From Pegea sp. RAD2-039 (lineage: Eukaryota > Chordata > Thaliacea > Salpida > Salpidae), in NCBI GenBank assembly GCA_034620365.1, contig JAQGEQ010000003.1, positions 744,001 to 808,000 on the forward strand: a stretch of 64,000 nucleotides of DNA. The letters are read 5' to 3'. Both the position numbers and the translations under genes were made by a program. The notes under the pieces are model-generated. The model ran no database searches and was not told where the DNA came from. It saw only the letters and a program-made list of their open reading frames with translations. Positions 41,065 to 60,168 of this stretch are shown here, in pieces. Numbering within the stretch: position 1 is the first letter of the stretch; each line of letters opens with the position of its first letter.

Positions 41065-43875
41065 TTAATTTAGACAATTACATAGACAAACAGAAGATGG
41101 ACATTCAGTATTGCTTTGAAAATACCACTGAATATGTTGTAGATGACCTCCATGGCCACAACTTAGACAAAAAGTGAAGCTACAATTCTTTAAAAGAGTC
41201 TGACATACTTGACAAATAGGTCTGAAAGGTTTTGAAGTATCATGATTGCTATCAGGTTGGTCACTAACTAGTCGAACATCAAATGTATCTTGAACGGATA
41301 AATCCTTATTAGATAAATAAGATTCAATTTCAAGGCTTTTAAAATGTTGGTTGATACGTTTCAAATAGTCACCATAAGAAATTAAAGCAGCATCATAAAA
41401 TATATCTTTTTGTGGTAGGTGAGGAACTGAAAGTAATTTATCTTTGATACCATTTTCACTTTCTTCTCTTTCCACGTTATCTAGTTCAAAGAATTGAATT
41501 TGTGAAAAAGTGTCGAGGCTTTTAGTGGAATCGTAGGAATTAAACGAAACTGGGTATTCTGGGTTACTTTGTTGCCTTAGATGATTAACAGGAAGTTTAA
41601 AACTTCTTTTTTTTAAATTTCTAATTGGTGAAATATTTAAATTTTTGACAGTTTTATTTGTCGATTTGATATAGGAAGTTTTTGAACAAGGAGTCTTTGA
41701 AGTTATCAGTCTATTTTTATATACAGAGGATAGAAGAGCCATAGTTTGAAAGTCTTTAATGTCTGAGTAAAATTCAAATAATCGATCAACAAATGGTTGA
41801 CCAGCAGGAGTGTTCTTAAATGGGACACAGAGCTCGTTATGTGAAGTTTCCTGAACTCCAACAGAGTGAGATAGAACATTAACAGAAGACCACAGACGGT
41901 ACAAATCCGGACGTTTACAATCAAATGCAATTTGCTTATTTATTGCACAAATATCAAATGATGCTTCAGTTTTGTACTTTGCTGCTAGGGATTTGCTAAC
42001 TGGTAAGTAAGGGGAGAAATCAAAAATAAAAACTTTAGTCGGAGCAACAGCGAATTGATTGTTCGTTCGACTGTTGAAATATCTCCGAGGCTTCTTTTCT
42101 CTGGGTAATGACTTAGATGTGTTTGAACCAGGAGTAGTTCCATATTCTTGTTGTTGGTTTGATTGGCTATCATTCCAATTCTGGAACGTAACTAAACTTT
42201 TCAAGGATTTAGGAGTTTTTTCAACTCCTGTCTGTGTCATTTTAAAGATAGAAAGTCCAGTAAAAACAACTAAATATCCTGCTCCACAAAAACTAGCTTT
42301 ACAAGTTTTAGGGTAAGGTATATTTTTTAGAGTTTTGATCAATTCTTGTGCGATTGGAAAGTTCTTTGTTTGGAGAGCTTTCACTTTAGATTGTTGCTTT
42401 AAAGTGTCACTAATAGTTTGAAAACACCGCTGCAAATAACCAAGCATTTGGTTGTTTGAGCAAGATAAAGAAGTTTGCTCTACAGCTGATGAAAGATGTT
42501 CTTCGATAAATTTCATTTGAGGAGAATCAGCATATTGAGCAGTGAATTCAAATTTAGGTTGATCATATAAAGGATAACCTTTTGGAAATTTAACAATAAG
42601 TTTAAAGGTTTTAGAATCCCATGAAACAGAAGCTACACAAAAACGAGATGAAGCACTGGTTTCAACTATCTGAATACCAGGAAATTCTAATGACTTTACA
42701 GAGTTTAGCTCATTATCCAATGAGTATGACTTAGAACGCCTTTCCAATTCTGTCTTATAAGGTTCTAGTTGATCTATGTGTTTATCAGAAGTGCTTTCTT
42801 TGTGTAAGCCTATTTCAGGAGATATTTGACTATTTAAATCTAAATTACTTTCAACAAAGTATTCATTAAAAGTGTTGTATTTACTAGAATCCAGATCATT
42901 TGCAACTGAATTCTGTGAAAAGTCATAAGTTGGTTGACAAAACCTTAAGCTTTGATCTTTAGACCACGTGACTAGCTGCCAAATGTTATTATTTCTCTTT
43001 TTTCTCCAACCAAAATCAAGAACTACATCAACATGATTTTCAAACATCTGAGTAGAAACGTCCATCTCATTGATGTCCCATAAACATAAAGGAGTCTCTC
43101 TAACATTTTTAAATGTTAATGAAGTTACACTTCTATGATTTGGATTAAACTGTACTCGCCAAACTGGATACTTAGCACTATAACTTAATGTTCCTTCATT
43201 ATATTTTTTACTTGTATCCCAAAAACTTATATTCGTATCTTGACTGCCAGAAACCAATAGATTTTCAGATATTGGACTCCAATCTATACTATAAATATTA
43301 GAAACATGTGCCATAATACAATTTACAGGAGTACTTGGTGATCTAACATCCCAAACCCTAATATTTCCATCATGTGAACTAGCTAAGTTGAAATCATTTA
43401 TTTTGTTCCATTTTATTTGACTAACACCAGCTACAGTTGACATGGTTAATTTTGGTCTTTTAATTTCCCGTATATCCCAAAGACATATATAAGAATCTAA
43501 TGAACAAGTTGCCATTAAGTTTGGGTGGGAGTAAGACCAATTAGCATCACTAACTGCCCGAGTGTGACCACTAACTGTAGCTAGTTTTATAGCACCACTA
43601 TTATCATCAAATTTCCAAATATCAGCGCTTTTACTATAAGTAGTTAAGAAGTATTGACTTTGATTTATTAATGGATTCCATTCTATATGACTTATATCAT
43701 ATTTATTTTCAATTCCGACTTTATGTTGAACAACTGTTGGATTATCAAGATCAATCATTATTAGATTTCTTTTAGATCCAAGAACTGCTAAGCTACCAGT
43801 TATGTCTATAGACATAGTCGTTGCTTGAATATTTCCATGATTTGAAACAACAACGTCTTGAGACCACCTCATCAT
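41065..43875 (-). CDS. WDR59: WDR59, GATOR2 complex subunit (single exon)
   Basis: One uninterrupted 936-codon frame, close to the length of animal WDR59. An N-terminal WD40 propeller occupies ~1-330 (repeats such as LMATCSLDSYICLWDIRE and NIRVWDVRSP). An RWD domain lies at ~385-490 (VKFPKGYPLYDQPKFEF). A C-terminal zinc-binding RING-like domain shows CQVCQTLLKN, then CLSCGHGGHLQHIQWYF, then CPSSVCLCNC, the WDR59/WDR24/MIOS signature. GATOR2 acts at the lysosome, opposing GATOR1 and so promoting amino-acid activation of mTORC1. Start: first of two adjacent ATGs, three bases after an AG (43880-43879) that may be a 5' leader acceptor. Oddity: no coding intron in a window where neighbours have 3-13 exons. 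Confidence 0.95.
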   Translation of the reverse strand: MMRWSQDVVVSNHGNIQATTMSIDITGSLAVLGSKRNLIMIDLDNPTVVQHKVGIENKYDISHIEWNPLINQSQYFLTTYSKSADIWKFDDNSGAIKLATVSGHTRAVSDANWSYSHPNLMATCSLDSYICLWDIREIKRPKLTMSTVAGVSQIKWNKINDFNLASSHDGNIRVWDVRSPSTPVNCIMAHVSNIYSIDWSPISENLLVSGSQDTNISFWDTSKKYNEGTLSYSAKYPVWRVQFNPNHRSVTSLTFKNVRETPLCLWDINEMDVSTQMFENHVDVVLDFGWRKKRNNNIWQLVTWSKDQSLRFCQPTYDFSQNSVANDLDSSKYNTFNEYFVESNLDLNSQISPEIGLHKESTSDKHIDQLEPYKTELERRSKSYSLDNELNSVKSLEFPGIQIVETSASSRFCVASVSWDSKTFKLIVKFPKGYPLYDQPKFEFTAQYADSPQMKFIEEHLSSAVEQTSLSCSNNQMLGYLQRCFQTISDTLKQQSKVKALQTKNFPIAQELIKTLKNIPYPKTCKASFCGAGYLVVFTGLSIFKMTQTGVEKTPKSLKSLVTFQNWNDSQSNQQQEYGTTPGSNTSKSLPREKKPRRYFNSRTNNQFAVAPTKVFIFDFSPYLPVSKSLAAKYKTEASFDICAINKQIAFDCKRPDLYRLWSSVNVLSHSVGVQETSHNELCVPFKNTPAGQPFVDRLFEFYSDIKDFQTMALLSSVYKNRLITSKTPCSKTSYIKSTNKTVKNLNISPIRNLKKRSFKLPVNHLRQQSNPEYPVSFNSYDSTKSLDTFSQIQFFELDNVEREESENGIKDKLLSVPHLPQKDIFYDAALISYGDYLKRINQHFKSLEIESYLSNKDLSVQDTFDVRLVSDQPDSNHDTSKPFRPICQVCQTLLKNCSFTFCLSCGHGGHLQHIQWYFQSNTECPSSVCLCNCLN

Positions 43876-47125: not shown

Positions 47126-47350
47126 AACAACAATATCATCTATACAGACATTCACGAAGTCTTTGACTCAGTTTCACATCCTATTTTAGTAAAAGCCCTC
47201 TGAAAGATTGATAGTGGCCCTACTATTATCTCTTAGATTGATCAATTTTCCAATGATGGACAACGAGAAGTAATGATTAAAAACGCTTCTTCAAGTTCTC
47301 TCAAAGGCTTTCAGTGGTGCTCTCTATATATCTTTTCTAAATGATAGGTC
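47126..47350 (+). pseudogene. LINE reverse-transcriptase fragment, palm region (broken)
   Basis: The plus strand encodes NNNIIYTDIHEVFDSVSHPI followed by an in-frame LVKAL, two stop codons, IDQFSNDGQREVMIKNASSS and a shortened SGALYISFLND. This is the non-LTR reverse-transcriptase pattern (Y)TDFxKAFDSVxH ... SGVPQG...LYINDL, with the SGVPQG segment partly deleted. It is a dead remnant. Just beyond it, on the other strand, lies an earlier part of the same kind of enzyme. Confidence 0.8.
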
Positions 47351-47530
47351 ATATGATTGTGAATGATATGCTCTTGAGTTCTGCAGATAACTGAAGTTAG
47401 CGAAACTGGTCTGCAGTTAAGTGCAGTGTTTCTGGGACCCTTTTTATGAATTGGAGCAATAATAGCTTTCTTCCAAATTTGTTAAACTCTTCCTCGCCTC
47501 AGAGTCATGTTAAAGAGAAGCGATAATGGA
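47343..47530 (-). pseudogene. LINE reverse-transcriptase fragment, upstream motif, inverted
   Basis: The minus strand encodes a frame with one stop: PLSLLFNMTLRRGRV, stop, QIWKKAIIAPIHKKG, PRNTALNCRPVSLTS, then VICRTQEHIIHNH. This is the segment that precedes the palm in non-LTR reverse transcriptases (W..A.I.PI.KKG....NYRPISLTS). It runs towards, and meets, the plus-strand palm fragment at ~47345, so the two parts of the enzyme are in opposite orientation. Confidence 0.8.
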
Positions 47531-51452: not shown

Positions 51453-53495
51453 TTTAAATCAACAGAAAAAAATTAGACTACAATAAAAGACTGTCAATAT
51501 AATATAAACATTCAAAAAATTTTAATAAATTATTATATTGTAAATAACTAGTCATACAAACTAACTAACTGTAAATAAATAAATTATTTAGACACATAAA
51601 TGTACAATAAAAAATTATGAAAAATGAATTAAATTTATAATTTATTATATTATTTAACAAAAATGTTATAACTTTTATTTTCATGATACTTAACAATATT
51701 TATTTTACACAAAAATTTATTGAAAACTTATCTTTTTAAAGACCAAAACTTAACACAGAATTTAAAAAAAAAAAAACTTTGTTACAATATAATTATAGAC
51801 AAACAAAATTTGTTGAAAATATTACTGAAAATTCAACTAAATTTGGCAAAACTAATAAAACATGTTAGCATTAAAACATTTTTCAGTAGGAAAAAAGTAA
51901 AGAAAAAAAGCCATTTTCGTAAAACATTTTTTAATTATTTTAAATAAAAATCAAGAAACAAAATTTTATTCTAAAGACTAACAAATTTCATCAAAAAGTT
52001 TTTAATAAAGGATGAAAATGCGGAGAAATTTGAATATCGGGGAAAAAGGATAGTTAAAAAAATAAAATAAATTTCAACTAGTACACAAAATTATTTGGAG
52101 ATCACAAAATAATTAGACTTTAATAAAAAACTAATTTTTTTGTGTACATCATACTTAAGTACATTTCCTACTAAACTAGAAGAAAAATTATTAAAAATTA
52201 AATAAATAATTTGTCAGGTGGTGCATTTTGAAGCTAATGCCTTGTAAATATAAAATTTAGTGTGATTATACTTTCGTACCAGCCTTAAAAATCAGTCAAG
52301 TTAACATTTTTCAAGTCATATAGAACTAGGTTACCAGTTAAAAAGCCCACAAATTTTACTGGCAGCCCAGGAAGAGTCTTGAGTACTTTTGCCAACTAAG
52401 CTGATGTAAATCTTACAAGGTGCACAGAAAACAAAATAACAATTATGAAAATTAAAGTTTTTCTTCAACATATAATCCTTATCAGTAATATTCTTGAAAT
52501 ACCAACATTAGGACAAATTTGTCTCGCAGATGATTATTAATCTAGAGCATAATTATTTATTGATTATTACATAACGGTAGTAGTGCATATGCTTCTGCGA
52601 TAATGAATATTTATAATAATGAACTGCCTCCGCCAAATGCGTCCAAGTGCTGGGAATGCTCCAGAAACAGTGTTAAAGAGAAATTACAGTGAAATAAAAA
52701 GAAGCTAAACAAGTTTTTTCTTCTTCTTTGATATTAGTTTTTAGATAGTTTTGATATTAGCTATCTACAAATAGTAGAATATTTTAGATTCGAACTTCTA
52801 TGCACGCAATATGTATGTATAAGTTATTTGAGTGCTTAAATTGTTAATTATATTTAAAATTACTGACGAAATGAAGAAATTCAAAAATAATCGAACATTT
52901 TTTTTGATGACTTAAGTTTACCAGCTCTAAGTAAAATGTTCAATAGGATTGGCAACTGAAATTATGTTGAATAATCTCAATCATAAGATGAGTTTGAGAT
53001 AAAAGTTATTTTAGTTTCTTCAGTTATAAGAAACTGTATTTGAAATCAAACAAACGAAGTTAGTAAAGTATTTAATTACTGTAAATAAAGTTTAATAGAT
53101 TTCATGAAAGATTTTGCAGCTTTAAAGCCCGATTTTTGATTTAAGTAATTATTTTATTATATATCCAATTTTTTAAATTAAAGTTGTCAACTGCTTTATA
53201 TCAATTGTCACTTTATCAATGAATTATCCTTTTACTGTCACTCTCACATTTATGGCATATTCAATATTTATATCATAAATATTTATCTCTTATAAGTTAG
53301 ATTCAGACAAAAAATTTAAATCAAAATGCAATTTCCAAAAATAAATTAAAATATTTTAGCAATAGTAAGGGGGCGACGTTGGTAGATGGAATATAACATT
53401 GCGAGCCACACTCTTGATTTTGCATATAGACGGCTTAGAAGTTTACAAATTAAACTAAGATGGCAGCAACATCCTGGACGACTAAGCAACCTTAT
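51453..53495. other. Gene-free AT-rich stretch upstream of DCAF13
   Basis: No exon supported. It contains a Lys/Leu-rich chance frame at 51720-51947 and a 29-codon frame (52603-52692) in less AT-rich sequence, discussed as a finding. It should include the DCAF13 promoter. Confidence 0.45.
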
Positions 53496-53873
53496 TAAAG
53501 AAAAAACTACCAGCTCCATATGCAGAATGAGCCTAGAAAACGTAGTTTCAAATCTCACAAAATTTAAAGTTTTTTCTCATACCGCACAATCAGTACCTGG
53601 AACAATCTGCCATCAGAGATTGTCATGTCAAAATCACTTGTGTTGTTCAAAAAAAGGCTGAATTGTTATAATATCGCCAACATTGCCATTTCTAAACTGT
53701 GAATTTTTCTCTTTTACAATACTATGATTCTGTGCAATTCTTCACTGTCATATGCTTTTTCGTTTACACGTCAAATAGATCTAATTTGTGAGAATGTGTG
53801 TTAGCGAGAGGTGCTCTCTTTAGGCACCCTCCTTCACATTTATTGTAATAAATAAATAAATAAATAAATAAAT
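53496..53873 (+). mobile_element. LINE 3' end, copy 1 (5'-truncated, degenerate)
   Basis: The C-terminal end of a non-LTR retrotransposon ORF2 is readable in one frame with a single stop: NEPRKRSFKSHKI, stop, SFFSYRTISTWNNLPSEIV, then SLVLFKKRLNCY and a terminal stop. FFS.RT...WN.LP...V..S...FK..L is the usual end of this class of reverse transcriptase. A ~190-base 3' untranslated region follows and ends with GTGAGAATGTGTGTTAGCG, a small hairpin, CCCTCCTTCACATTTAT and an (AATA)n tail to 53873. Similarity may extend further left than 53496. The body of the element is missing. Confidence 0.85.
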
Positions 53874-55290
53874 GAAATACAACAAATTCGAAAAAAGTTC
53901 ATTTTCTTCTTCCGCAGGTCACTCGCAAATTGAAATCTTTATTAAAGCAAACTTATATAAATTTGTATGCAGAATGAGCCTCATATAAATATGCTGTGAG
54001 ACCTTTCTATTGAAGAGCCTAGCTTTAAGAGCTACTGCTATTTTATCAGATCTTATTTTTCGCCAGTTCTTTGAATATACGATAGATCAAACAAAAGAGG
54101 AACAGTATAAATGTAGAGCTATTATTTATTTTTCTTTTGGCAATCTTTGAAAGATTAGTTTATCAAAGTATTACATAACTAATAAAATTTCTTTCTGAAA
54201 AGTTTAAAAATCAATACGACCATTTACATATAAAAATTAGTCATTTTTAGTAAATTTTAGTTTGTTTCGATAATTTTTTATCTAACAGCCAGAGAATGTA
54301 AAAAGAATATCTAGATTCAGTTAAACAACTAACAAACAAGAAGTTTATTTAGTAGAAAAATAAATTATCAATTTCATGACTTCTCATAAGTTAAATTAGC
54401 CGCTTCTTGTTTCGTTTTATATCTTAATAGAAAGAGACATATATATTTTGTGAATAGTTTTAAATTATAAAAATTATTATCAAATACTATCAGCTAAATA
54501 GTTTCAATACTAAAGATGTTTCTACTTTAGTTTCCATGTGCAACAGTTGAATTTAAATGTAGAACCAAGACTTCAAATAGTCTTTTCAAAGTCTGCTTAT
54601 AACTTTACTTCTAAATTTCTGGAAAAATGGTTTTTTGAGTTATTTTTAAATTAGCTCTTTTTTAATTTAGAACTCTAAAGTAATACAAATATCATCTTAT
54701 ACTAAATATCTGGCAGTGTAATACTAACTTTTACTTACGACGCAATGACTTACTTTATTTAGTAAGTTTTTATTATTTATTTATAGGTCTTTAATCTTTT
54801 ATTTTAGTATAAAAATATGATAATTTTATATATTAATTTAGTTATGCTAAATAGAAGTTATCTTTTTACCAATATACTTAGTTAAAAAGTGTTGAAAGTA
54901 AGCTATGATTCTTGATCGTAAATTTAACTAAGTAATCTACTATCAACTTATCACAGTCTATATTAAATAATAAAGCTGCTTATAGACCTTTTTAAAAATA
55001 ATAAGATTTGATTTTTAAGTTTATTTAAACAAAAACTTTTGATAAAAGTACTTTTAATTAAAATGTAATATCGATCGGTTTTAAGTTTTCAACGCTGTCG
55101 ATTCTGGCTTTTAGTAAAAACACTATAACACTTTTTCTCAATGCTCACAAGTCTAGCTAGCCATTAGTTCTTTTGCTAACTGAGTTTAGGTAGGTCTAGT
55201 CAATTTTAAATTTTATTCATTTTTTAGTTATTTATTCAAGTATTTTTTGTATTATTAGATATTTTTCTGGATTTGTATTTAAACAATTCA
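53874..55290. other. Spacer between the LINE and RPL30
   Basis: No exon seen. The 15-base word ATGCAGAATGAGCCT, present inside the LINE fragment at ~53520, recurs near 53968. This may be a further scrap of the element. The right end should hold the RPL30 promoter. Confidence 0.4.
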
Positions 55291-58200
55291 ATGGCTGTCA
55301 AGAAACAGGTATTTTTAAATATTTATTTTTTAATTGTGTATTGGTCTTACAGCATGATTTCATTTAAGCTTTAAAATATATTTTAAGTTTGCTATTGAGT
55401 TCATTATTTTTTTTATTACATCAATATTGTTACAAATATCATTTTTAAATATCATAATTTGTTTAACTTTATACTTTTACATATCAAATATCAATACTTA
55501 AAGTTTTTGATTATATTTAAAGTTCATCTATTAACTTTTTTAGTCTTATTATATTCATTTTTGCAATGGTTAATTCATGGTTTTGTAGCTTCTATATACT
55601 TTAAAGTGTTGATATTTGGAAAAAAACTGATTTTTAATTCGTTAGGATATTTTAAATACTCTGAACATTTAAACTTCTCATTTTATATAAGTTTTTCTCA
55701 TCTTATTTTGTTAGCCACCTTTTAATTGATGGTTTTAATCTTTTGATATATTCAGATTAATTTGCTTTAATTTATTTTATTATCTTTAAACTAATCAACT
55801 TTAAGAGATTGGTTTTTTGTTCATGACCAGTTTTATAATTTTTTTTTTAAATTTATATCTTTTATCAATACTTCTATTTTTTTTAGAAAAAGGCTCTGGA
55901 CAACATCAACTCTCGTCTCCGACTGGTGATGAAGAGTGGAAAGTACAATCTTGGATACCGTGAAACTTTGAAGACTCTTCGTCAAGGAAAAGCTAAACTC
56001 ATTATCTTAGCTTCTAATTGCCCAGCTCTTAGGTTAGAGAATATTTTTGAAGATCTAACTGCAAATCTAAACCTCTAAAATAAGGCCTATCTACTGTTTA
56101 ATATTAGATTTGGTAAAATATTGAGGAATAAAACCTCCATGGCTTGTTCAGCAGATTATGCATCAACTTGGCATTAATCTTTAAACACCATGGTACATTT
56201 GTTATATTATAAATTTATTATTATATTTTTTTTACTAATTAATCTTTATTAAAACAATATTAGTTAATTTATAAAATTAGTTTAATTTATTTTGAATTTA
56301 TAATTAAGCTTATTTATATATATATATTTATCATGTTAATTTTAAGTGTCTCTTTTGGTGGCATTTTTATGAATTCTTTTCGATTTTTTTGGTAGTAGGA
56401 AAATAACCTTTAAAGCCAATATCATGTAAAGATGCAAGTTGATTATATTTTCAGAACTAGTTGTAGTCATCATGTTTAGTCAGATCCAATAAAATTTAGA
56501 TTATCAGTTATCACATATAATAATTACTTTTGATTTTAATATTAATATTTATATGATCAAATATCAGTTATGCAGCATATTTTTACTCCCAGAGAAAAGT
56601 TATAATTAAAAATGTCTATAAGTTGTCGGTATTATGCTGAAAACTTTCCTGAAGTTGATGATATAGTCATGGTTAACGTGCAATCGATCGCTGAGATGGG
56701 AGCATATGTTCGCTTACTGGAATATGACAACATAGAAGGCATGATTTTGCTGAGTGAGCTGTCTAGGAGACGAATTCGTTCAATCAACAAACTTATTCGT
56801 GTTGGAAGAGATGAATGTGTCGTAGTGATTCGTGTTGACAAAGAAAAGGGATACATCGATCTGTCGAAAAGAAGGGTTGGGGCAGAAGATGCCAAAAAAT
56901 GTGAAAACCGTTACTCAAAAGCTAAATGTGTTTACAGTATCTTACGGCACACAGTTGAATTGTTACATGCTGCTGGTAATATGGTAGATTTTGAAGATTT
57001 ATTTCAACGGACTGCTTGGTTCTTGGATGAAAAATACAAACGTGAGAATGAAAAGTGTAAAGCGTCTTATGACATGTTTAAAAGAGCTGTAGATGATCCT
57101 AGTATTTTAGATGAACTCAAAATTAGTGCTGAAGAACGGACCTTTTTGATAAGGAATATTGAACGAAGGCTAACACCTCAAGCTATGAAAGTCAGAGCTG
57201 ATATTCAAGTTTCTTGCTTCGCTTATGAAGGGGTAGACGCCGTCAAAAAAGCTCTAAATAAAGGATTAGATTGCTCATGTGAAGAACATAATTTAAAAAT
57301 TAATCTTATAGCACCTCCTACTTACGTTTTAACAACCCAATCTTTAGATCGTATGCAGGGCATTGAAGCTCTACAGAAAGCTATGGATGAAATAGAAACT
57401 TGTATAAAAGATTGTGGTGGAAATTTTGAAGTCAAAATGGCTCCTAAACTAGTTACTGATGTTGATGACTTTGAATTACAAAAAGAAATGGAAAAACTTG
57501 CCCTTGCTAATGAAGAAATTGATGGTGATGATGATGTAGATGGTGAAGATGACGAATAGATGGTCACTGGCCATGTACCTTATCAAACTGACATCTTTAA
57601 CTCTCTACACTTTCTAATTTCAGGACATTAACAAAAGATATCAATAAGAATTTTCAGTAAAACTCATTTTTATGTTCTTTGGCTTTCGGGTGGATTTTCT
57701 GACCTTTTTTGTTTGTTTTTAGACCGTTATCAGCAACACTTTTCCTATTTTCTTCACCGGACTTATTGAGATTTTACTTTATTATCCATCAGTTATTTAT
57801 ATACATAGAAATATTGTGTGTTTGATGTTATTCTGGTAGTCACTAAATAGAAACATTACATTTTGATGTGGCAATGTTCATATTGTTTACAAATTAGTTT
57901 AAGTCCGCGATATTCTTCTATTAAAATGGTATTTTTCTTCAGAAAATCCGAGATTGAATATTATGCTCTCCTGGCAAAGACCGGAGTTCATCACTACACC
58001 GGAAGCAACTCCGAACTGGGAACAGCTTGTGGAAAATACTTCCGAGTCTGCACATTAGCAATTACCGATCCAGGTACCAGCTTTGTTCTTAAATCTTTTT
58101 TTGCTCTTCTTATTCTATTGGGTTTTTGCCACATATGCAAAAGTCAGATCAAAGAAGGAGCAACATCAATTGCCAGTTATAACTACTACTTAGCTCATAT

Positions 58201-58359
58201 TGCTATGTAGATTTAAGACTGTCAAACATTAAACTATTTATAATTCTTCACACAAACCTTTAAATGGAAAGTTGTTACTTAATCAAGTTTTATTTTTTAG
58301 GTGACAGTGACATTATTAGAAGTATGCCATCTGCTGCAGGAGGGAATACTCAAGAATAA
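55291..58359 (+). CDS. RPL30: 60S ribosomal protein eL30 (RPL30)
   Basis: Four exons (55291-55308, 55887-56032, 57943-58073, 58301-58359) join in phase to 117 codons plus stop; vertebrate RPL30 has 115. Family-typical stretches: [74 protein letters not shown] and [10 protein letters not shown]. It is a structural protein of the large ribosomal subunit, and yeast L30 regulates its own splicing. Exon 1 encodes only six residues, a common layout for ribosomal protein genes. Intron 2 (56033-57942, 1.9 kb) contains a complete eIF2-alpha gene on the same strand. Poly(A) signal AATAAA at 58377-58382. Confidence 0.97.
56612..57559 (+). CDS. EIF2S1: Translation initiation factor eIF2 subunit alpha, intronless, nested in RPL30 intron 2
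   Basis: A single 315-codon frame, full family length. The N-terminal S1/OB domain (~14-88) contains the phosphorylation site [12 protein letters not shown], with Ser 51 counting Met, the residue that PERK, GCN2 and related kinases modify to shut down translation. It also has the kinase-docking [12 protein letters not shown] helical domain follows ([19 protein letters not shown]), then the C-terminal alpha/beta domain ([31 protein letters not shown]) and an acidic tail ending [11 protein letters not shown]. The protein delivers initiator tRNA to the 40S subunit as part of eIF2-GTP. Nothing is truncated or frameshifted, so it appears functional. An AG acceptor (56591-56592, after TTTTTACTCCC) lies 19 bases before the ATG and may mark a spliced 5' leader. 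Confidence 0.96.
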
Positions 58360-58376: not shown

Positions 58377-58382
58377 AATAAA
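58377..58382 (+). terminator. Poly(A) signal of RPL30
   Basis: AATAAA 18 bases after the RPL30 stop codon, giving the very short 3' untranslated region typical of ribosomal protein mRNAs. Confidence 0.6.
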
Positions 58383-59839
58383 GCGATTAAAAAAACATCT
58401 TTAGTTTGATTAATTTTATTTGTTAGGGCTATTAGGTGAAGATACAATTGAAAAATAAACGTTTTTAACTTCATCTCTAACTGTTTACTTACAGTAGTGT
58501 CCTTGTTCAAGTAGTTTATATTAATCTTATTGTAAACATCTAGAATGATTTCTTATTCTTAAATACTCATTAATACAACTTTGAGCTTAATGTGAAGGAA
58601 TACTTCTAGGTTGCATCGTAATACTGAAAATATATGCTTTTTTTCTATTAGATGGTTGAGGTTTTATTGTTCTGAGGCAAAAGAGAAGTACAAAGTAAAT
58701 GATAATTGACAAAAATAGCAATACATTGAAGAAGACAAATGATTAACACTAGACTGGTCCTATCACCTTTATTTTAAGTTTTAAAAGTCTACAATTGATT
58801 AACTTGTTGAATCTGCGAAAAGTATATTCAGTTCCATCTACTTCATCTTTACAATCATCTTCAAAATCTGCATTGGTTGGTATATAAACTTCTTAAACAA
58901 TGTTGAGAAAAAGCAAATTTAGTTATTACTTGTTTGTTGTTAGCATGCTTCAAAAACATGGCTGCTATGCTTGTAAGTCTGCAGCAAATCAGATTCTAAA
59001 TTAAACAGATGGTTTGAATATAAATGAATAATTATTCAAATATCATTCAGTTAAATTTAGGTTTAAAAATCATCTGCTTCTTTGTGTTATATTATGTTGA
59101 TGAAAGTATGTATGTCATCAATCACAAAATTCATCAAAACTGAAGTTTAGTTTCGTTTATACATAAGGTTAGGAAATCAAAGTACTAGATTGAGTTAAAC
59201 CCATTTGTTAATTAATCTATTGTAGGAAACAAAACGCCTTGCAGGTAGTTTAAATCAAAGTTTTCATTTTACTTTAAGACGAACAGTAGATTTATAATTA
59301 ATTTCATTAAAAACTTTTAAATTAAAAACTATACATATAGCTGAAATATAAAACAATAAGAATAAGTGTTCTAATCACGTGTAAAGCTTGTCGAATAAAC
59401 CCCGCAGATTGTGAGTCTCTTTGTCGATTATGTACTAATGAGAAATCATAAAGCCATATTTTACACCACAAAAATATAAGAGTTGAATTTTTAAGACGAA
59501 ACAAAATCTATAAATTATTTCATTTCTTAGCAACTATTCTGAATATTTATCTTTTATATAAATAGACATACATATTTTTTTAATACTTTGATTTAATAGC
59601 TATTGTGTTTCTGCTGAAGCTACAAAATAATTTAGAAAAGTTTATTTAAGCATTTATACGTGCTTTCAATTCGAAATAATCAAAAATTACTAAGACAAGT
59701 TTCATTGGAATATAAATAAACAGTTAATGAAATTAAAAACAAGTAAGTTGTTTTGAACTTCAACCATCTTACTTACATCTTACCACGAACTTACCATTAC
59801 ATCTTAATAAGCCTATATCACCTGGTACATTGGTCAGAG
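58383..59839. other. Gene-free AT-rich stretch
   Basis: No exon or RNA gene seen on either strand. Short frames such as 59322-59504 (-) have no motif or splice support. Confidence 0.45.
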
Positions 59840-60168
59840 CAAATTTTTTCTCATACCGCACAGTTAATACATGGAACCAGCTGCCATCAGAAATTGTCAT
59901 CTCGAAGTCGCTCGCGTTGTTCAAAAAGAAGTTGAACCGTTATGATATTGCCATTTCTAAATTGTGATTGTTTTCTCTTTCTTATATTATTAACATTCTA
60001 TGTAATTGTTCACTGTTATATGCTTTGAGGGCTACTGAAATGCCATGTGTTACATCTTTTACTTTCTATATTTTTTACTAAATAGATGTTATTTGTGAGA
60101 ATGTGTGTTAGCGGGAGGTACTCTCTTCAGATACCCTCCTTCGCATTTATTGTAATAAATAAATAAAT
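59840..60168 (+). mobile_element. LINE 3' end, copy 2 (5'-truncated)
   Basis: The same family as the 53.5 kb copy. The frame reads FFSYRTVNTWNQLPSEIV, then SLALFKKKLNRY and a stop. The 3' untranslated region contains GTGAGAATGTGTGTTAGCG, the hairpin GGTA...TACC (60117-60135), CCCTCCTTCGCATTTATTG and an AATAAATAAATAAAT tail. Compared with copy 1, the untranslated region carries insertions and the hairpin has paired substitutions. More severely 5'-truncated than copy 1. Confidence 0.85.

Follow-up and report, generated by a model that had tools for sequence, protein, structure and literature searches.

The RPL30 Gene and Its Introns

The window, by which is meant the whole 64,000-nt stretch of DNA analysed here, corresponds to bases 744001–808000 of contig C15 in an assembly of 105.7 Mb and 387 contigs. 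The G+C content across it, taken in 2-kb steps, is 20–33%, and the genome is of the compact, AT-rich animal kind. Contigs C108 and C125 of the assembly begin with TTAGGG arrays, which are present also on C139 and C342. Taken with the genes found, these arrays suggest an animal other than an insect or a nematode.

The gene for ribosomal protein eL30 (RPL30) is located at 55291–58359 on the plus strand, as are all features of the locus given below. It consists of four coding exons with GT/AG borders, which join to a frame of 117 residues and a stop. Coding exon 1 (55291–55308) specifies MAVKKQ and is joined in phase, with its GT donor at 55309. Intron 1 follows (55309–55886; 578 nt), with GT..AG ends and leave-one-out splice scores of 8.4/9.3. 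Coding exons 2 (55887–56032) and 3 (57943–58073) are each recognised by a PDB match, an assembly protein match and an in-phase join, and exon 4 with the stop (58301–58359) by a PDB match and an in-phase join. Exons 3 and 4 are separated by intron 3, a GT..AG intron of 227 nt (58074–58300). Between exons 2 and 3 lies intron 2, the host of the gene described in the next section, which spans 1,910 nt (56033–57942) from a GT donor at 56033 to an AG ending at 57942. A candidate RPL30 poly(A) signal, AATAAA, is present at 58377–58382. Among PDB structures, the eL30 chain that fits the predicted product best is 22tu_Lc, with 89 matches over 111 aligned positions.

An earlier note on this DNA had claimed that exons 2 and 3 are in phase across 56033–57942, and the joined 117-residue eL30 frame confirms this. 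The protein search of the assembly returned two RPL30 matches, which are exons 2 and 3 of this same gene, exons 1 and 4 being too short to show. A second RPL30 copy was considered and rejected, as none was found in the 105.7 Mb by this search. The in-phase join to a full eL30, together with the failure to find another RPL30 in the assembly, indicates that the host exons on either side of the guest belong to one gene.

The splice sites were assessed with a model built from 21 introns annotated by hand in the window, each site being scored leave-one-out. These introns come from RPL30, a PPIE-like gene (61.4–63.7 kb) and a DCAF13-like gene (48.4–51.5 kb, minus strand). The donor of intron 2, TAG|GTTAGA, scores 7.7, where the other 20 donors range from 1.6 to 14.0; its acceptor scores 4.3, against −1.2 to 10.0 for the other 20 acceptors. 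The splice sites of intron 2 are thus ordinary, with a typical donor and an acceptor inside the range of the others, and the removal of intron 2 by splicing is itself a prediction. None of the other 20 introns is as long (median of all 21, 160 nt; second longest, 578 nt), and without the guest frame intron 2 would still measure 962 nt.

The eIF2-alpha Gene within Intron 2

Inside intron 2 is a single open frame of 315 codons (56612–57559) for the translation initiation factor eIF2-alpha (EIF2S1). It runs from an ATG at 56612 to a stop at 57559 and contains no internal stops; the chance of an open frame this long at this composition is about 5e-13. Pfam identifies the EIF_2_alpha (E=4.1e-31) and S1 (E=2.3e-16) domains. 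The closest structure is PDB chain 28zu_D (Eukaryotic translation initiation factor 2 subunit 1; E=5.8e-123), which we take to be the human protein, with 193 of 304 aligned residues identical. The block around the regulatory serine is unchanged, the serine itself falling at codon 51 of the guest, and the acidic C-terminal tail is present. The Pfam and PDB matches bear out the earlier description of an undamaged eIF2-alpha frame with regulatory serine and acidic tail inside the intron and on the same strand. The open reading frame lies wholly within the RPL30 intron in the orientation of its host, which makes it a nested gene.

The possibility of another EIF2S1, which the earlier note had raised, was addressed by searching the assembly. 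A protein search (E<=0.001) found one eIF2-alpha place, and a profile search (E<=1) again found one; a second copy is rejected on this basis. The assembly may be incomplete: COX1 was not found in it, and the mitochondrial genome is probably missing. As the single intact and conserved copy, the guest is most simply, and very probably, the working eIF2-alpha gene. Both gene structures, their nesting, and the presence of one found copy of each are direct observations.

Sequences Flanking the Guest Gene

The guest ATG is preceded by 579 nt of intronic sequence (56033–56611), which is where a promoter would be located if the guest has one. This stretch contains 10 ATGs, each of them in a frame of 20 codons or fewer. 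Ten upstream ATGs in 579 nt make it likelier that transcription starts close to the guest than close to where the intron begins. Two acceptor-like sites were detected here by splice-site scoring: a strong one, TGATTATATTTTCAG, at 56440–56454 (score 10.3; 157 nt before the ATG), and a moderate one, TATTTTTACTCCCAG, at 56578–56592 (score 4.3; 19 nt before it). The only donor in intron 2 to score at least 7 is RPL30's own. This scarcity of strong donors is not significant, as 8% of 132 same-sized windows also lack any.

Downstream of the guest stop, AGTAAA at 57656–57661 is a candidate poly(A) signal for the guest, and a T/GT-rich stretch follows it at about 57670–57721. The interval 57609–57722 holds two further acceptor-like sites, ending at 57623 and 57722 (scores 9.9 and 10.7), which are potential decoys. 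The true acceptor of exon 3 scores lower than either of them (9.5 when the model includes it, 4.3 when it is left out), so that mis-splicing into the 3′ sequence of the guest is conceivable.

Strong acceptor-like sites are also seen some 25–63 nt before the starts of RPL30 and of the PPIE-, WDR59- and DCAF13-like genes of the window, at 55228, 61342, 43909 (minus strand) and 51477 (minus strand), respectively. These could mark 5′-UTR introns or an undetected spliced leader. When a close acceptor is defined as a score of at least 7.5 within 64 nt ahead of the start codon, a cut-off picked after the scores had been seen, such a site is found in 4 of 5 window genes, eIF2-alpha being the exception. 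Of the 12 Ras-family loci that have an in-frame ATG, 3 possess one. The background of acceptor-like sites per 60 nt is 11% at a score of at least 7 and 5% at a score of at least 8.

Single-Frame Genes Elsewhere in the Genome

The guest is not alone in having its coding region in one frame. In the proteasome family, 19 matches were grouped into 15 loci. Eight of these have the domain complete within a single frame and six show only pieces of it, with the reservation that a gene whose domain is complete in one frame may still have introns. The ninth locus carries positions 14–189 in one frame, plus a second coding piece. The CCT/HSP60 family behaves otherwise: its 49 matches fall into about 13 loci, with a single whole-domain frame in one (CCT1-like), a nearly whole one in another, and pieces in 11. 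Of the best 30 matches in the Ras family, 10 have almost all of the domain in a single frame free of stops. Two of the Ras-like genes, at L021 and L031 on different contigs (C32 and C40), have near-identical starts and upstream DNA; one of them has an in-frame stop inside the domain match, and the pair looks like a recent duplication.

Other long single frames were encountered in passing. Within the window, a WDR59-like gene at 41065–43875 (minus strand) is a single frame of 936 codons with Pfam WD40 repeats, its RWD and zinc-ribbon matches being just below the cut-off. WDR82-like (L051:6158–7066) and PLEKHF-like (L052:3348–4010) frames were seen by eye near proteasome genes and on the same strand as these. 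The names of the proteasome subunits and of WDR59, DCAF13, PPIE, WDR82 and PLEKHF are our own by-eye assignments.

Taken together, it seems to be common here for a housekeeping gene to occupy a single frame, without this being universal, as the CCT family does not follow. This suggests frequent mRNA-mediated intron loss or gene replacement, and it means that the guest's lack of introns is probably not special. Nesting is another matter. No obvious host gene on both sides was seen within 5 kb of ten genes (9 of the 15 proteasome loci and the CCT1-like gene) in a by-eye reading that is insensitive. One of the ten, the PSMB4-like L056, has a second coding piece and is hence not single-exon. To the extent that this reading allows, nesting is not the rule among these ten.

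Origin and Expression of the Nested Gene

The explanation that best covers the locus as a whole, to which we give a probability of roughly 0.6, is that an mRNA-derived copy of eIF2-alpha sits in the RPL30 intron, has lost its parent, and uses its own promoter, with RPL30 transcripts reading through. Such a copy would have been inserted into an already existing RPL30 intron, and the intron-bearing parent would have been lost afterwards. RNA polymerase II would transcribe the guest from a promoter within the 579 nt upstream, and the transcript would end near the AGTAAA at 57656. Transcripts of RPL30 would pass through the guest, the whole of which would then be removed with intron 2. In favour of this explanation are the intact frame, the conserved regulatory site, the single copy found, the ordinary splice sites of the host and the other single-frame housekeeping genes, which would fit repeated replacement of genes or introns by way of mRNA. 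The CCT/HSP60 loci, mostly in pieces, point the other way. A promoter of its own would be the least demanding mode of guest expression, and the argument for that putative promoter is that the gene needs one.

The marks of retroposition were sought at the locus. The coding region is intronless, as expected of a retrogene, but because single-frame genes look common in this genome, this is a weak indication of retroposition. No run of at least five A was found in 57560–57945 that could be a poly(A) relic. Comparison of the two intron flanks gave a longest common word of 12 nt, where 60 shuffles gave a median of 10 and a maximum of 13, so that no target-site duplication stands out above chance. 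Marks of both kinds fade with age. Protein and profile searches found no intron-bearing eIF2-alpha parent in this assembly, and with no parental copy remaining, the retroposition route is untraceable. Fragments resembling a non-LTR reverse transcriptase and its C-terminal tail were noted by eye in the window at 47311–47481 (minus strand), 53386–53661 (plus strand) and 59737–59967 (plus strand). They represent a possible source of reverse transcription.

Intron loss in place combined with movement at the DNA level would leave the same picture. The ancestral eIF2-alpha would then have lost its introns where it stood, and an RPL30 intron would have been rearranged or extended around the gene, with no retroposition involved. 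The missing retroposition marks fit this course of events, and so do the single-frame housekeeping genes of this genome that have no obvious host, which imply that losing introns and entering an intron are separable. What tells against it is the position of the host intron: the junction of RPL30 exons 2 and 3 presumably sits between the same residues in other animals, which favours an old intron and a newcomer guest. We regard this enclosure as doubtful, though not far-fetched. The insertion of an mRNA-derived copy with its own promoter is preferred, and the remaining alternatives concern how the guest would be expressed.

Co-processing of the guest from RPL30 pre-mRNA is possible but unlikely. 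In one form, a spliced leader would be trans-spliced to an acceptor within intron 2 (56593 or 56455), giving a nested operon in which eIF2-alpha output follows the RPL30 promoter. The enrichment of close acceptors in the window genes and Ras-family loci over a background of 5–11% per 60 nt points this way, as does the strong acceptor at 56455, while use of the moderate one, 19 nt from the guest ATG, would give a leader free of ATGs. RPL30's own donor being the only one of at least 7 in the intron would also fit, were the scarcity significant. A precedent is offered by the glass sponge Aphrocallistes vastus, in which single-exon genes are numerous and occur alongside nested genes and a trans-spliced leader (PMC10282587). 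Against this, 5′-UTR introns account equally well for the upstream acceptors, and the guest itself has no strong acceptor in the close position, its best lying 157 nt upstream. The search of the assembly for spliced-leader RNA genes consisted of one Sm-site pattern, a donor followed by AATTTTTGG, and gave 12 scattered and unlike matches, fewer than the 18 of a reversed control. No evident leader gene was seen, by eye or with Rfam, in the 5S rRNA repeat. The tandem 5S rRNA genes lie at L009:4411–5692, in four full copies 365–430 nt apart, and two proteasome-domain exons are located about 1 kb from them on the same contig. On balance, trans-splicing is unlikely. In another animal, the rotifer Brachionus plicatilis, ESTs showed no spliced leader (PMC1925144).

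In the other form, RPL30 exon 1 or 2 would be alternatively spliced in cis to the acceptor at 56455 or 56593, and the two genes would share a 5′ end. The same acceptor-like sites and the lack of another strong donor in the intron speak for it, and for TXNDC12/KTI12, another tandem nested pair, forced exonization ahead of the inner gene has been documented (PMC3192792). As the RPL30 start codon would then precede the guest ATG, the guest would probably be translated poorly, and we consider this route very unlikely. Stricter than either form is the proposal that every eIF2-alpha mRNA originates in an RPL30 primary transcript, through trans- or alternative splicing to an acceptor of intron 2, with its dose coupled to RPL30. 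This too appears decidedly improbable. If true, how much eIF2-alpha is made would depend on the transcription of a ribosomal-protein gene and on whether intron 2 is spliced out or the guest released, the two processes competing.

It had further been suggested in the earlier note that eL30, which in yeast blocks the splicing of the RNA that encodes it, could in this way adjust the output of eIF2-alpha. The nesting alone speaks for such a tie, and nothing in the analysis supports it. When the locus was scanned for kink-turns with a simple pattern, there was one match, compared with a mean of 1.7 in 30 shuffles. An Rfam scan of the whole window at gathering scores was empty, and at E<=1 the locus yielded one weak match to a snoRNA family; it falls in the acidic tail of the guest and scores 18.4 bits, where the family's threshold is 42. 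In addition, the yeast feedback site, a kink-turn at the regulated 5′ splice site to which eL30 binds, is located at the first intron of the gene, whereas the guest resides in intron 2. With the kink-turn count at chance and nothing in Rfam above threshold, yeast-type eL30 autoregulation was not recovered here and is highly improbable as a link between the genes. Mutual regulation of RPL30 and eIF2-alpha is as yet unsupported.

Comparison with Known Nested Genes

An intronless gene nested in an intron is of a kind already known. Nested genes typically make up 5–10% of the genes in annotated genomes, with 12.4% in one glass sponge; some annotations have near zero, for which the authors blame annotation settings (PMC10282587). 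According to one survey, internal nested genes are typically short and intronless and often stem from duplication (PMC8467205). The present guest likewise agrees with the mammalian and Drosophila picture given there, in which a short intronless internal gene lies in an intron of the external gene (PMC8467205).

It is less usual for two housekeeping genes to be nested on one strand when the host measures 3 kb. RPL30 is a short ribosomal-protein gene and eIF2-alpha is presumably a housekeeping factor. By contrast, external genes in mammals and Drosophila are generally long and rich in large introns, and the internal ones are more tissue-specific (PMC8467205). The orientation differs also: RPL30 and eIF2-alpha share a strand, whereas mammalian pairs are mostly opposite-strand, which holds for 220 of 296 simple pairs in human and 193 of 248 in mouse, or about three quarters (PMC8467205). 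Surveys, as summarised in that source, suggest selection against same-strand nesting (PMC8467205). The unusual part of the RPL30 locus is the combination of features, in that the only copy found, a housekeeping guest and a housekeeping host, a shared strand and a short host occur together. A full-text literature search, which speaks for the word sets used, returned no case of eIF2-alpha nested in RPL30.

Ribosomal-protein genes are strongly transcribed. RPL30 should accordingly be highly active, and it encloses, on its own strand, the one gene detected for a translation factor that is central and regulated by stress. If both genes prove to be abundantly expressed, the locus would provide a natural case for studying how interference is avoided in same-strand nested pairs, and for asking whether the supplies of ribosomes and of an initiation factor are tied. 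As matters stand, it is one more nested gene.

The closest functional parallel is KTI12, which is likewise a single-exon gene in tandem orientation within an early host intron, intron 2 of human TXNDC12 (PMC3192792). There, interference with upstream transcription and splicing was measured in TXNDC12/KTI12 minigenes, and KTI12 transcription from a minigene is stated to be independent of the upstream SV40 promoter, the data not being shown in that source (PMC3192792). The gene pair is a different one, and its effects were tested (PMC3192792), whereas RPL30/eIF2-alpha is described here from sequence. In the case of e(y)2 of Drosophila, an mRNA-derived copy has similarly assumed the main role of a conserved gene; the parent survives there with a role in the testis (PMC12611072), whereas no eIF2-alpha parent was found here. 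At the level of the whole genome, Aphrocallistes vastus offers a likeness, with many single-exon genes and a high share of nested ones in a small genome of 80 Mb (PMC10282587), compared with 105.7 Mb here; this likeness implies no kinship. Of the two glass sponges compared in that study, each has a nested glassin gene consisting of a single exon (PMC10282587).
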